Origin: Candidatus Panguiarchaeum symbiosum
Lineage (GTDB): Archaea > Asgardarchaeota > Njordarchaeia > Njordarchaeales > Panguiarchaeaceae
Reading direction: 5' to 3'
Assembly: GCA_024720975.1 (NCBI GenBank)
Contig: JANJXX010000001.1
Span: 346,811 to 409,838, forward strand
Length of the DNA stretch: 63,028 bases
A model generated the notes under the pieces. The model was given only the letters and a program-made list of their open reading frames with translations, made no database searches and was not told where the DNA came from. Both the position numbers and the translations under genes were made by a program. Below, piece after piece: positions 51,361-62,721 of this stretch. Position 1 is the first letter of the stretch. Every line of letters starts with the position of its first letter.

Positions 51361-53901
51361 TTAGACAATTCCTTCCTCAAAAACCTTCAGCAAATCCACG
51401 GCCTTATCAGCGTTCGGAACTCTCTCTCCACTTAGCATCTTCCGTAATATCTCTCGAGCCCCCCTTTGATTTAACGGCTTGTTATTGTTTCCACAATGAT
51501 AGGAAAAGACGCATTTATTGAAGGACTCCTTTGCCATACAGGATGGTGTTGATAATATCTTGTATGCTTTCTTCACAGCTTCTTCGAATCTGTCAAACAG
51601 AAGTGATGTTATTCCATTTCCTCCTGGTAGCGATTCATACACAACTATAAGTCCTGACTTTCCAAAGGATACTCCGCCGAGGTCATATTCTGAGCCACCT
51701 GAGATCATGTAAGTACCCTCAATCAGGATGTGTTCAACAGCATGATAAGCACCAGTTATCGCTTCTTCGTCTTTTTCCTCTGAGTACTCAGGAGCCAAGA
51801 AAAAGAGTCCATATGTGACATATTTGTAACTGATTACATCTTCTAGTAGCATATGAGCTATAGGTTCCTTCTGACCCTCTTCGTACAAATTGTATCCCCA
51901 AACACTTATTTTCATTTCTAGTAGCCCGTGGTGTATTATTGTTCCACAGGCTTCCCGCTTAGTAATGCTACCAATTGGTACGGCACTATAACTATACAGA
52001 GGTTTTGTGTAGATACGCTCATATTCAGGAGGTGCAGGTTCTACCTCTGCCCTTAACTTTGTCAGATCCAACGATCTAACTAAATATTTATTACCTTGAA
52101 CGATGTGTATCGCTCCTGGGTGAAGCTCTTTCACAGCTGTAACTATATCTCTACGGTCAATCCTTCTGTTGTTGCAATACACATCCACCTGGATATCTAC
52201 TCCACGTATATTCCTGCTGAAGTACTTATAGAATAGCACTCCATTTGCTACCCAGTGATCACCAACCTTCAGTAAGGCCCGTTCACTCTCGAGTTCGGCT
52301 ATTACCTCTCTTGGCAGGTTGAATTCGTGAATGTCAGCTTCCGAGAGTGGTTTTTCATAGGCCATTATATATATGTGCTGCTTTGCAATAAGTGGATTCC
52401 TTGGCTCTAGGTATCTACTGGAAATATCCCTAAAGTACTCTTCTGGATTAGTAGCATAGTACTCGGATATGGGATCATCTGATCTGAGAAGAAGTATAGC
52501 AGCACCGCTCTCTTTTCTCCTACCTGCTCTACCACTGCGCTGGATAAATCTATCCGAGGGCGCAATCTCCGTTACTACAGCCGATACGTTACCAATATCT
52601 ATTCCAAGTTCTAGTGTTGGCGTAGATATTATACCCAGCAGCTTACCGCTCTTAAAATCGCGCTCAATTTTCCTACGCACCTGAGCTGAAATGCCAGCTC
52701 GATGTATGTTCACCCTCTGAAAAACTTCGTAAAGCTTTGATCTCTTGATGAAATTATACGTAAGCTCTGCGCATGATCTAGTGTTACAGAAAACCAGAGT
52801 TTTAGTTCCATGCCTAATGAGCTCTGCCAATATTTTTGCGTTGGCATGAAACGTGGGAAGTTGGGTGTATAAGAAGAGAACATCGAGAGAAACTTTACGT
52901 CCGCTTCCGATTACAACCTTAACTTCATCATCTATAAGCTTCCTGGCTAGATCAGCCGGATTGTAAATTGTTGCTGATGCTAAGACTATTTGCAATTTTC
53001 TTTGGCTCGATTTTGCTAGTCTTCGCATCCGCTTTATAATGTAGTGTACATGACTTCCGAATGCGCCTGAATAAACATGCACCTCATCTAGGATCACTAA
53101 TTTTGCCGACAGGAAAAGTTTTGGTATCGCATTATTTTTAGAAATTTTAGGGAGCCAGTAATGTATCATATCGAAGTTCGTTATGAGTATATGCGGCGGA
53201 TCCTTGGTTATTTTCAGGCGTTCCTGTGCAGGAGTATCCCCATCAAGGACTGACACCCTAAGACCCAGAGGCCTGGAGTAGTATAGTATCTTCTCTAGCT
53301 GGTCTCTAGCCAGTGCTTTAGTAGGGTATATCATCAACACTGAAGGACATTCACCAGTTTCATAGGCGATGTCTAGAGCCGGTAGTAAAAAAGCTTCTGT
53401 TTTTCCCATAGCTGTCGGTGCTGTAATTATCACATTGTTACCACTACGTATAGATTTTATAGCCTCCTCCTGGAACTTATAGAGCCGCTCGATACCTCTA
53501 GCTAGGAGACTCTTACTGATCTCTACAGCAGTATTTTTAAGACCCAAAGTATAGAGGCTCTCTGGTGAAACTTCAACCCCTAGCTCTGGTGGTTCATTAT
53601 AGAGATTCCCATAGTAAATTGGTAACAACTCCAGGTAGTTACTTTCTCGTGCTTTTTCCATAATTATTTGGATAGGTTTGGATGCGCTTGGAGGTATCTC
53701 TCGCAGGGGAGACACGATTATCTTATCATCCTTCTTTTGTTCGAAACTTTCCGCAGTCTTCTCATCCTTCGTTCTGGCGAGTAGCTCTTGATAGTATCCA
53801 CACGATCTACAAATTATAACTACTTTTACTAGGTCAGTGTCAACTTTCCTCTTTTGAATCATCAATTCCTTCGAACAGTTAGGACACTTTGCGTTTAACA
53901 T
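51361..53901 (-). CDS. DEAD/DEAH-box helicase of the Hrq1/YprA family
   Basis: An 846-residue SF2 helicase probably acting in DNA repair. A zinc ribbon (CPNC and CRSC) opens the protein. The helicase core has Walker A TAPTAMGKTEAFLLP, Walker B VILDEVHVYSG, SATIYN, LVFCNTRS and QRSGRAGRR. The C-terminal DUF1998/MZB region has cysteines in CMAKESFNKCVFSYHC. This order matches COG1205 proteins related to eukaryotic Hrq1/RecQ4-like helicases. It lies 15 bases downstream of the GTPase fusion gene on the same strand and is probably co-transcribed with it. Confidence 0.88.
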   Translation of the reverse strand: MLNAKCPNCSKELMIQKRKVDTDLVKVVIICRSCGYYQELLARTKDEKTAESFEQKKDDKIIVSPLREIPPSASKPIQIIMEKARESNYLELLPIYYGNLYNEPPELGVEVSPESLYTLGLKNTAVEISKSLLARGIERLYKFQEEAIKSIRSGNNVIITAPTAMGKTEAFLLPALDIAYETGECPSVLMIYPTKALARDQLEKILYYSRPLGLRVSVLDGDTPAQERLKITKDPPHILITNFDMIHYWLPKISKNNAIPKLFLSAKLVILDEVHVYSGAFGSHVHYIIKRMRRLAKSSQRKLQIVLASATIYNPADLARKLIDDEVKVVIGSGRKVSLDVLFLYTQLPTFHANAKILAELIRHGTKTLVFCNTRSCAELTYNFIKRSKLYEVFQRVNIHRAGISAQVRRKIERDFKSGKLLGIISTPTLELGIDIGNVSAVVTEIAPSDRFIQRSGRAGRRKESGAAILLLRSDDPISEYYATNPEEYFRDISSRYLEPRNPLIAKQHIYIMAYEKPLSEADIHEFNLPREVIAELESERALLKVGDHWVANGVLFYKYFSRNIRGVDIQVDVYCNNRRIDRRDIVTAVKELHPGAIHIVQGNKYLVRSLDLTKLRAEVEPAPPEYERIYTKPLYSYSAVPIGSITKREACGTIIHHGLLEMKISVWGYNLYEEGQKEPIAHMLLEDVISYKYVTYGLFFLAPEYSEEKDEEAITGAYHAVEHILIEGTYMISGGSEYDLGGVSFGKSGLIVVYESLPGGNGITSLLFDRFEEAVKKAYKILSTPSCMAKESFNKCVFSYHCGNNNKPLNQRGAREILRKMLSGERVPNADKAVDLLKVFEEGIV

Positions 53902-53915
53902 CCCAATCTTTCAAG

Positions 53916-55610
53916 TTAAGCAGATATAAAATCCATGAGTTCTGACGACGGCGCTTCCTTAGATATTAGAACAAGTATCCCCTTTGATCCTCTAAAAACT
54001 ACAATGCTTCTAGAGCCTACTACTACTAATAGCTTATAATCGGGAAAGACCTCACTTACAGTCCTGTTCACTGAATACAATTTTAACAAAAATTCCCTCT
54101 GTTTCTCCGGGTCTCTCACAACTCCAGCATAAGCAAATTCTGCTTTTTCACCCTCGACAATCAATACGAAGCATTCGTCGCTCTTTAGTTTTTGTTGGAT
54201 GTTATCAACTAACTTTCTGAGGCTCTGATTTTTCGTTTGCTCTATGCTTAGACTTGGTTTTGATGGCATCCCCAGCTCTATTCGTGCCCACTTCTCGCTG
54301 CGTCCAAGTTTCGTAAGCGCTGAGTATATTTCTCTAGCGAGGGCGCTATTTATTTTAATTATGAGAATCTTCTCGCCCCTTATTGTAACGCACATTTCTT
54401 TACTCAAAACGAGCATGGCTTTTAGTATTCCAACATCTTCATCTACAACTGATATCACGCCCAGTAATTTCTTTATCATCTCCTCTTCATCAATATCGAG
54501 CTTGTCGCCTCGGATATTTCTAGCTACAAGTAACTTGTCCGGCTTAGCATCAACAATATAGACTTTGGAATCATATCCTATGCTAGCCTGAATATTGCTA
54601 GCCATAACCCAGCTTGAATCTTCTGGTGATGCCAATATTTGTGGAGATTTTGTCTCCGCAACCGAGATTATCTCCTCCGTTATAGAGAGCTCCTCAATGC
54701 TTGGTATTTTCTCTGGAACTTCTGTTTCTGGGATTCCAGTGGTTTCGACGATTTCTTTAGCAGCCTCGAAAATCTTGCCCTCTTCCTCGGGCTTGCCAAA
54801 TACCTTCTCAGCTTCTTTAGGAATTTCTGGTAATGGAGGAAGCGAAATCTCTTCAATTTTTTCGACAATCTCTGGTGCTTCTAGTTCTTTGGTACCGACT
54901 AACACTTCTGCTTCTTCCACTTTAATCGGTTCTGAAACCGCAACTGCTAGTTTGGAAGTTTTGATAATATATTGCTCTGATCTTTTTTTAAGTTGGCCGA
55001 CAATGTCATCCGGCAACTTAAGCTCGAAGTTAAGTCGCTCCACGCAGAAGAAAGTAAGATCTACATCTTCTGAACTTAGACATGAAATTATGAAGTGCGG
55101 AATTTCGTAACCATAGTAACTTACAACTTTCGATAAGTACTTAGCTATGTCATCACCAATTTTAACTGCCTCTGGATTTGGATTAATATCTCCTTTTGTA
55201 CCTACAACAGCCATAGCAATAGCAGATTTTAGGATCTCCTTCTTCTCAAGCTCGCTTTTAATCATATTGTATAATTCGTTGGCTGATGCTGGATTGGTGG
55301 AATCATAAAAGAATAACCAAATTACGGCCTTTTTAACTGCTTCTGTTCTCTGCTTTTCCAGTTCTTCCCTCCCTGGAACGTCGATCAACACGAGTTTGTA
55401 ATTCGTTACTGTTTCGAGAGTACCCATGACTGTTCTACGCTTGTAAGCTCTAGTTATCTCTATTATTTCTGGTTCCGTTGTTGTTTTTTCCTCGGGAACA
55501 TTTCTCCTTATTAGCGTATTGAGAAATTTTGACTTGCCGGAGCCCGATGGACCATATAATGCTACGCGTACTCTTGGAATCGCCCGCGGTATGAATTCGT
55601 CTTCTGACAT
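53916..55610 (-). CDS. Ras-like GTPase fused to two longin/roadblock-like domains
   Basis: A 564-residue protein. Residues 13-200 form a small GTPase domain: G1 GPSGSGKS (20-27), G3 DVPG (77-80), G4 TKGD (138-141). The position matching Ras Gln61 is Arg81, so intrinsic hydrolysis may be slow. Residues about 225-330 are a Glu/Pro/Ile-rich linker. Two alpha-beta domains follow (about 335-445 and 460-562): SKVYIVDAKPDKLLVARNI with MCVTIRGEKILIIKI, and ECFVLIVEGEKAEFAYAGV with VVVGSRSIVVFRG. The alternation of strands resembles longin/roadblock folds, platforms for small GTPases. No membrane anchor. SD GGTG precedes the ATG. Confidence 0.65.
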   Translation of the reverse strand: MSEDEFIPRAIPRVRVALYGPSGSGKSKFLNTLIRRNVPEEKTTTEPEIIEITRAYKRRTVMGTLETVTNYKLVLIDVPGREELEKQRTEAVKKAVIWLFFYDSTNPASANELYNMIKSELEKKEILKSAIAMAVVGTKGDINPNPEAVKIGDDIAKYLSKVVSYYGYEIPHFIISCLSSEDVDLTFFCVERLNFELKLPDDIVGQLKKRSEQYIIKTSKLAVAVSEPIKVEEAEVLVGTKELEAPEIVEKIEEISLPPLPEIPKEAEKVFGKPEEEGKIFEAAKEIVETTGIPETEVPEKIPSIEELSITEEIISVAETKSPQILASPEDSSWVMASNIQASIGYDSKVYIVDAKPDKLLVARNIRGDKLDIDEEEMIKKLLGVISVVDEDVGILKAMLVLSKEMCVTIRGEKILIIKINSALAREIYSALTKLGRSEKWARIELGMPSKPSLSIEQTKNQSLRKLVDNIQQKLKSDECFVLIVEGEKAEFAYAGVVRDPEKQREFLLKLYSVNRTVSEVFPDYKLLVVVGSRSIVVFRGSKGILVLISKEAPSSELMDFISA

Positions 55611-55767: not shown

Positions 55768-56823
55768 ATGAGTAATAATATCAAAGGCAATCCTTTTAAG
55801 TATGCCATCACTATTGATCCGAAACAGCTTTTGGAAACCGCAGTTGGGAGATCTCTAAAGCTATCCTTACCGAAGATAAAAACAAGTAAAACCGAGAGAT
55901 TAAGGATCTTATTACTGAACAGGATCAGATACATTGAGAAGAACCTTGTAACAAATTTGCTTGAATTTCTCAGAAGGATACCCGATCTGGACAATACGCA
56001 TGAATTTTACAGAGCCGCTGTTGACGTTTACTTCAGCATAGATGAATTTAAGAAGACGCTAGGTCGCATTAGTGGCACGATTCGAGTTATTGAGAAACTC
56101 TCTGAGGAATACTTGCGAAACATTCGCGGAATAAAAGTAAATATTTACTTGCCAGAGACTTTTTTCGTGAGACACCTTAAGAAATTATGGCGTCAGTATT
56201 TAGCAAGAATGAATTCCTTCATATACGAAATCTCTGAGGCTTTTGATTACTTAAACTCAGCTATTAAAAAACTCAAGGCTCTTCCTGATTACAATCCTGA
56301 GCTGGAGACTATAATTGTCTGCGGTCCGCCAAATAGTGGAAAAAGCAGCCTCGTGGGGAAGTTATCAAATGCGCGGGTTCAGATAGCAGAGTATCCATTC
56401 ACTACAAAGAATGTTGTATTTGGCCATATCAAACTGAGGTCGCGGTTTGAGAAGACGATCCAGATAGTAGATACACCAGGACTTTTCGATAGGCCTTTAG
56501 GAGATAGAAAAAAGGAGGAGCTACTAACACTTCAATCCATAAGGACGATAGCTAATGGTGTTATATTTCTATTCGATTGCAGTGTCGAAAGGACTCTTAG
56601 TGCAGAGCAGCAAATTAGAATCTACCAGGAGGTAACCAGTTTTCTTCGTAATAGCAAGATAATAGCCGGCCTAAATAAGATTGACATTATGGATGAGAAA
56701 GTCTATAACGCTATATACGACTTTATTACAAGAGACATAAACATAAAGCCCATACCACTTAGCATAAAGCAGAGTATTGGTTTGGATCAAATCCTGAGTG
56801 AAATTGAACGTCTGTTCGGGTGA
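55768..56823 (+). CDS. Ribosome-assembly GTPase Nog1
   Basis: GTP1/OBG-family protein in large-subunit assembly. A helical N-terminal domain of about 170 residues (RIRYIEKNLVTNLLEFLRRI) precedes G1 CGPPNSGKSSLVGKL, the switch region EYPFTTKNVVFGH, G3 VDTPGLFDRP and G4 LNKIDIM. Length 351 matches archaeal Nog1. ATG at 55768 has GTGAAGGGAT upstream. It is followed by trmI after 6 bases. Confidence 0.93.
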   Translation: MSNNIKGNPFKYAITIDPKQLLETAVGRSLKLSLPKIKTSKTERLRILLLNRIRYIEKNLVTNLLEFLRRIPDLDNTHEFYRAAVDVYFSIDEFKKTLGRISGTIRVIEKLSEEYLRNIRGIKVNIYLPETFFVRHLKKLWRQYLARMNSFIYEISEAFDYLNSAIKKLKALPDYNPELETIIVCGPPNSGKSSLVGKLSNARVQIAEYPFTTKNVVFGHIKLRSRFEKTIQIVDTPGLFDRPLGDRKKEELLTLQSIRTIANGVIFLFDCSVERTLSAEQQIRIYQEVTSFLRNSKIIAGLNKIDIMDEKVYNAIYDFITRDINIKPIPLSIKQSIGLDQILSEIERLFG

Positions 56824-62307: not shown

Positions 62308-62721
62308 TTGAAGTTGTCGGTAGATCAACAGGCATTCCTTACATTGAGAAAACTTGGAATCCAAGCAATAGGTATTATTGAATTCGATGAAGTCTACGGA
62401 CCAATGCCAAAATTTATACACTCTCAACATGCGAAACTTGTGAGGAGAATCCTGCAGGATCAATTATTCTCTATGAAGCTATCAGTTCTCTCTAAGTATG
62501 CTTCGGAGGCCACATTAGCCGATGATCTGAGGGTAATAATCGAAACCTTCAGAAGCTCCGGTGATAATAGAGCAAAGATTAATTTCATAGTAGCGCAAGT
62601 CTCAGAAGAGGCCGACTATGCAAGAGTACGAGCACTTTTACGCGATATTTCCAAGAGGTTGAGCACAGCCGAAAGGATTGATAAGGAGAGCCTGGAGCGC
62701 ATCCTATGTGAAGCACTATAG
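62308..62721 (+). CDS. Small protein with a longin-like start, function unknown
   Basis: A 137-residue protein. Its opening, AIGIIEFDEVYGPMPKFI (about residues 20-37), recalls the first strands of longin domains in Nprl2/folliculin-type proteins, where a GP follows the first strand. Then come LVRRILQDQL, a strand-like KINFIVAQVSEE and a helical C-terminus. This assignment is weak and rests on local pattern only. TTG start. It is convergent with the truncated gene at the window end, with a 6-base overlap. Confidence 0.45.
   Translation: MKLSVDQQAFLTLRKLGIQAIGIIEFDEVYGPMPKFIHSQHAKLVRRILQDQLFSMKLSVLSKYASEATLADDLRVIIETFRSSGDNRAKINFIVAQVSEEADYARVRALLRDISKRLSTAERIDKESLERILCEAL

Follow-up and report, generated by a model that had tools for sequence, protein, structure and literature searches.

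The 564-amino acid protein considered here, encoded on the minus strand of the window (the whole analysed stretch of 63,028 nucleotides from Candidatus Panguiarchaeum symbiosum) by an ORF with an ATG start, is a lineage-specific version of the known GTPase–roadblock chain, not a new architecture. The family to which it belongs is set apart by the combination of a GTPase domain that scores as Rab/Ras, a long linker, one or two C-terminal roadblock domains, and a Lys or Arg at the position of Gln61 of Ras in each of the seven members (Table 1). The source is a 1.36-Mb MAG (81% complete) of the order Njordarchaeales in the Asgard phylum, a placement in line with the many small GTPases that genomes of this phylum contain. 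The GTPase gene is not a chance ORF because the seven members occur in three families of this order.

Table 1. The GTPase gene, its motifs and domains, and the divergently transcribed neighbour (positions in the window; residues of the encoded GTPase).
Feature	Residues	Positions	Strand	Remarks
Whole gene: Ras/Rab-like GTPase, Glu/Pro linker, two roadblock-type domains		53916..55610	-	564 aa
GTPase domain	13-198	55017..55574	-	Pfam Ras 16-149; Rab structures, Z about 20 over residues 8-198
P-loop G1 GPSGSGKS	20-27	55530..55553	-	G20, G25 and K26 invariant in 7 homologues
G3 DVPG (77-80) and Arg81 at the Gln61 position	77-81	55368..55382	-	Arg/Lys at the Gln61 position in 7/7
G4 TKGD	138-141	55188..55199	-	T138, K139 and D141 invariant (7 members)
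Glu/Pro-rich linker, probably disordered	217-321	54648..54962	-	pLDDT < 50; length varies among homologues
Roadblock-like domain 1	330-434	54309..54623	-	Predicted topology; pLDDT mostly 70-80
Roadblock domain 2	456-563	53922..54245	-	Element order as in domain 1; pLDDT 71-91 over most of the domain
NOG1-type GTPase, divergent neighbour		55768..56823	+	351 aa; Pfam NOG1_N 2.6e-19

The GTPase domain and the family

The membership of the N-terminal domain in the Ras superfamily is strongly supported by the G1, G3 and G4 motifs, the Ras profile and the Rab fold. Pfam Ras matches the window protein with an E-value of 3.3e-8 (33.7 bits, with the cut-off at 21.6) and also matches all seven family members, the family profile retrieves Rab structures from the PDB in a sequence search, and the model of the GTPase domain aligns with Rab structures over 164–168 residues (Z about 20, rmsd 2.1–2.5). 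The first-pass annotation, made from the sequence alone, had described a Ras-like domain with GPSGSGKS, DVPG and TKGD motifs, an Arg at the Gln61 position and a Glu/Pro linker, and each of these features is borne out. The Pfam Roc match to the window protein sits at the Roc cut-off.

The catalytic Gln is absent throughout the family, its place being taken by Arg or Lys in each of the seven proteins (Arg81 in the window protein). Position 61 varies within the Ras superfamily, with Gln in most members, not all, and in Ras, Arg or Lys at this position slows hydrolysis. The G3 motif itself is altered in two members, with Ala in place of Asp in one and Ser in place of Gly in the other, and therefore, some members may lack GTP hydrolysis altogether. 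Neither a lipid anchor nor a conserved membrane segment is seen, so that membrane recruitment, if any, would need a partner.

The seven members are found in 7 of the 10 Njordarchaeales genomes, and the six homologues of the window protein are 25–46% identical to it over the alignment. When 227 genomes of the phylum are searched by profile, the full-length architecture is confined to these seven proteins (E-values from 1e-141 to 1e-162), and the next best match (1.6e-11) covers the GTPase part only. A contig scan with the single window protein finds no relative, and the same scan with the family alignment yields six records, all encoding proteins already among the members. Both members from the window's genus (564 and 596 aa) possess two C-terminal units and the five others (373–420 aa) a single one, domain 1 being present in the window's genus only.

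Among the other matches to the family profile across the phylum, the longer Asgard ORFs that were read have designs other than GTPase–roadblock. The Asgard Rab-like GTPases L073, L076, L077 and L079 (in G026, G061, G067 and G127, respectively; 446–591 aa) combine a long Glu/Pro-rich linker with a four-cysteine, zinc-ribbon-like C-terminal end, another tethered-GTPase design. The 566-aa protein encoded at 158–1858 of L078 (G200) starts with HEAT-like repeats and ends with a Rab-like GTPase, the two being joined by a very acidic linker.

The linker and the C-terminal domains

In the full-length AlphaFold2 model, built on the alignment of the seven sequences, the approximately 105 residues of the linker fall under a pLDDT of 50 (the mean for the models is about 65), and the length of this region differs strongly between homologues. 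Beyond it, the model contains two domains for which the first-pass annotation had proposed a longin or roadblock-like fold, with structure prediction and fold search as the check. The roadblock part of this proposal stands and the longin part is not supported. The predicted helices (H) and strands (E) are H331-344, E349-355, E359-364, H373-392, E398-402, E406-411, E415-420 and H422-434 in domain 1, and H456-475, E479-486, E489-495, H501-521, E527-531, E535-540, E544-550 and H556-563 in domain 2. In both domains, this is the roadblock order, alpha-beta-beta-alpha-beta-beta-beta-alpha, and a second model, of residues 320–564, agrees with the first in this respect. Both domains open with a helix, and in both, the third strand of the second part of the sheet is followed by a single helix, compared with the longin order of beta-beta-alpha-beta-beta-beta-alpha-alpha; the longin reading is rejected on this predicted order of elements, in models of moderate confidence.

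The fold search with the full-length model is uninformative on the C-terminal part because only GTPases are listed, and the search was rerun on residues 320–564. Foldseek with this model puts RagA/RagC and MglB on top (probability 1.00, E-values from 1.4e-3), and the structural matches listed cover domain 2 only. For domain 2, the VIA Z is 11.8 with MglB (6h5b; rmsd 2.4, 101 residues aligned), 10.8 with the Asgard Roadblock3 (9jue), about 9.7 (9.6–9.7) with the C-terminal roadblock domain of RagA (6s6a), 9.3 with Gtr1-Gtr2 (3r7w) and 8.7 with LokiRagM (9m28). In profile comparisons, the C-terminal domains match Robl_LC7 proteins of the same order with an E-value of 3.7e-6, and the C-terminal profile of the single-domain members does so with 1.3e-6. 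On rerunning the Robl_LC7 comparison with 100 column shuffles, the real scores are 37.8 and 36.0, the shuffled means about 11 and 10, and the shuffled maxima 16.0 and 20.9. Pfam does not list Robl_LC7 for the window protein, and nothing meaningful is returned when the PDB is searched with a profile of the five C-terminal domains that occur singly; the same search with all nine C-terminal units has a Robl_LC7 protein as its best match, with an E-value of 0.17 that is suggestive only. Taken together, the fold search and the profiles strongly support the identification of domain 2 as a roadblock domain.

Domain 2 corresponds to the one C-terminal domain that the other members possess (profile comparison, probability 92, E-value 7.6e-7). 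Domain 1 shows a weak profile similarity to domain 2 (probability 50, E-value 1.6e-4), and the two C-terminal units likely stem from a duplication. The profile of domain 1 alone, made of two sequences, produces no significant match to Robl_LC7, so that its roadblock identity rests on the predicted topology, which points to a roadblock-like domain. Elsewhere in the window, at 62308–62721 on the plus strand, lies a gene for a 137-aa protein that starts with MKLSVDQQAFLTLRKLGIQAIGIIEFDEVYGPMPKF and matches no Pfam family at E-values up to 0.05; on visual inspection, this could be a small protein resembling longin or roadblock domains.

Phylogenetic position, gene context and possible function

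In a tree of 46 GTPase domains that includes 22 Rag-like rows, the family falls on the Rab-like side (support 95/98), at the end of a very long stem. An earlier tree with one Rag-like row had joined the family to that row (97/88), the program flagging the meeting of long branches; the kinship with Rag was lost with the denser sampling. These trees bear on the reading of the protein as a divergent Rag/Gtr-type GTPase, i.e. a fast-evolving Asgard Rag-like chain with a linker that would act as a roadblock-linked homo- or heterodimer. The identical order of domains, the place of the RagA/RagC C-terminal roadblock domains among the closest relatives of domain 2, the grouping in the one-Rag-row tree and the AU test, which does not reject the family together with the Rag-like GTPases (p 0.258), are all in line with such an origin. 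The denser tree speaks against it, as do the long linker that splits the domains and the profile data: Gtr1_RagA (PF04670) is not among the Pfam families matched by the window protein at E-values up to 10 and is absent from the 25 families listed, of 33, for the seven members, whereas L060, a Rag-like protein with the same domain order, matches it with an E-value of 1.4e-10. By profile, the GTPase domain thus appears Ras/Rab-like rather than Gtr1_RagA-like, and the Rag/Gtr origin is considered the less probable one.

The gene neighbourhood would also fit a different role, that of a ribosome biogenesis or translation GTPase that partners the divergent NOG1-type GTPase and is merely dimerised by its roadblocks. 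The two genes are arranged head-to-head in four genomes (G000, G001, G005 and G002) from two families, i.e. in the window and in L002, L003/L032 and L005/L036, but the pairing is missing at L033 (G008) and L035 (G003), the genes downstream of the family members vary between families, and divergent genes are not required to share a function. Such a role appears quite improbable, and overall, the gene context tells little about the function of the GTPase. Between the two divergent genes, a scan for sigma-70-type promoters finds nothing, the sigma-70 model being unsuited to archaea. On the other side, 15 bases downstream of the GTPase gene and on the same strand, starts a gene (51361–53901, minus strand) for a helicase-like protein with N-terminal zinc-ribbon-like cysteines; this gene also comes next to the GTPase gene, downstream of it, in L002, from the same genus.

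The reading that is favoured, and considered fairly probable, is that of a Ras/Rab-type small GTPase of Njordarchaeales that carries a flexibly tethered roadblock module of its own and acts as a slow switch regulated by the roadblock platform. By analogy with known roadblock proteins, the roadblock units would dimerise, between two chains in the members with one roadblock and possibly within a single chain in the two-roadblock window protein. The resulting dimer would serve as the platform on which the GTPase, a partner GTPase or a regulator is held, and would determine the nucleotide state. A slow intrinsic hydrolysis is suggested by the Lys or Arg that replaces Gln61, in which case the GTP state would be long-lived and its turnover dependent on a partner. 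The protein might then be a switch in the control of polarity, membranes or growth, along the lines of MglA-MglB or Rag-Ragulator. A bolder version, which is regarded as unlikely, is that the GTPase–roadblock chain originated independently for a second time, from a Rab/Ras-type GTPase, and that the tandem roadblocks form a pseudo-dimer regulating their own tethered Lys/Arg-61 GTPase, with platform-dependent hydrolysis. Should the fusion indeed be separate from the Rag GTPases, the joining of GTPase and platform would have happened more than once. The Lys or Arg present family-wide at the catalytic position is a directly testable feature.

Comparison with known systems

The first-pass annotation had described the GTPase and the platform as separate proteins in bacteria (MglA-MglB) and eukaryotes (Rag-Ragulator), and a chain with both as, to its knowledge, an undescribed architecture. 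Such a separation does not hold for the Rag/Gtr GTPases (RagA/RagC and Gtr1/Gtr2), which consist of a GTPase and a C-terminal roadblock domain in one chain; the Rag chains with known structures, about 300 residues long, align to the window protein through the roadblock part. Neither is the architecture undescribed in Asgard archaea. LokiRagM, of which the structure has been solved (PDB 9m28), is an Asgard Rag-like GTPase with a C-terminal part that aligns to domain 2. According to Tran et al. 2024 (PMC10933270), the MK-D1 genome has 74 small GTPases, 26 of which occur in combination with roadblock or longin domains, the Rag-like class includes GTPase–longin, GTPase–roadblock and three-domain fusions with the GTPase between longin and roadblock, and Asgard roadblock proteins form dimers. 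The Rag-like GTPase of L060 (1371–2333, minus strand; G003) lacks a long linker and ends in a roadblock-like part; next to its gene, downstream on that strand, come two uncharacterised genes, one of them possibly longin/roadblock-like. Matches to this protein are found in 225 of the 227 genomes of the phylum at E-values up to 1e-5; some cover the GTPase only, and many of those listed, including in the window's own genome, span the GTPase and the roadblock region. As for the distribution of the fusion, a point that the first-pass annotation had raised, it is the present version that is restricted to Njordarchaeales among the 227 genomes. The claim of a new architecture fails because the Rag/Gtr GTPases, the published Asgard fusions, 9m28 and the L060-type matches precede it. 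What the family adds to the Asgard small-GTPase/roadblock toolkit, a subject of research into how eukaryotic membrane and nutrient signalling arose, is a design that is confined to one lineage, has a long tether and, in one genus, carries two roadblocks.

The bacterial polarity switch MglA-MglB is a Ras-like GTPase with a roadblock partner that shares the xPG in G3 and includes, in MglB, the best structural match of domain 2; in bacteria, the two are separate proteins, and it is in the family of the window protein that Arg or Lys occupies the Gln61 position. Among the Roco proteins, LRRK2 also has an Arg in place of Gln61, its Roc domain reading DxxGREE. The window protein resembles Roco proteins in this Arg and in its Roc match at the Pfam cut-off, but no COR domain is found in it, and its C-terminal part is roadblock. 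The Asgard fusions of PMC10933270 fall in the same described class, GTPase plus roadblock or longin; they belong to the Rag-like class, and neither a long Glu/Pro linker nor tandem C-terminal roadblocks are mentioned in the text covered. The Rag/Gtr GTPases and the Asgard Rag-like proteins (LokiRagM, L060) share with the window protein the arrangement of a GTPase followed by a C-terminal roadblock in one chain, and their roadblocks match domain 2; in contrast to them, the window protein combines a GTPase that scores as Ras/Rab rather than Gtr1_RagA with a linker of about 105 residues, two roadblocks (in its genus) and the Arg/Lys at the Gln61 position.
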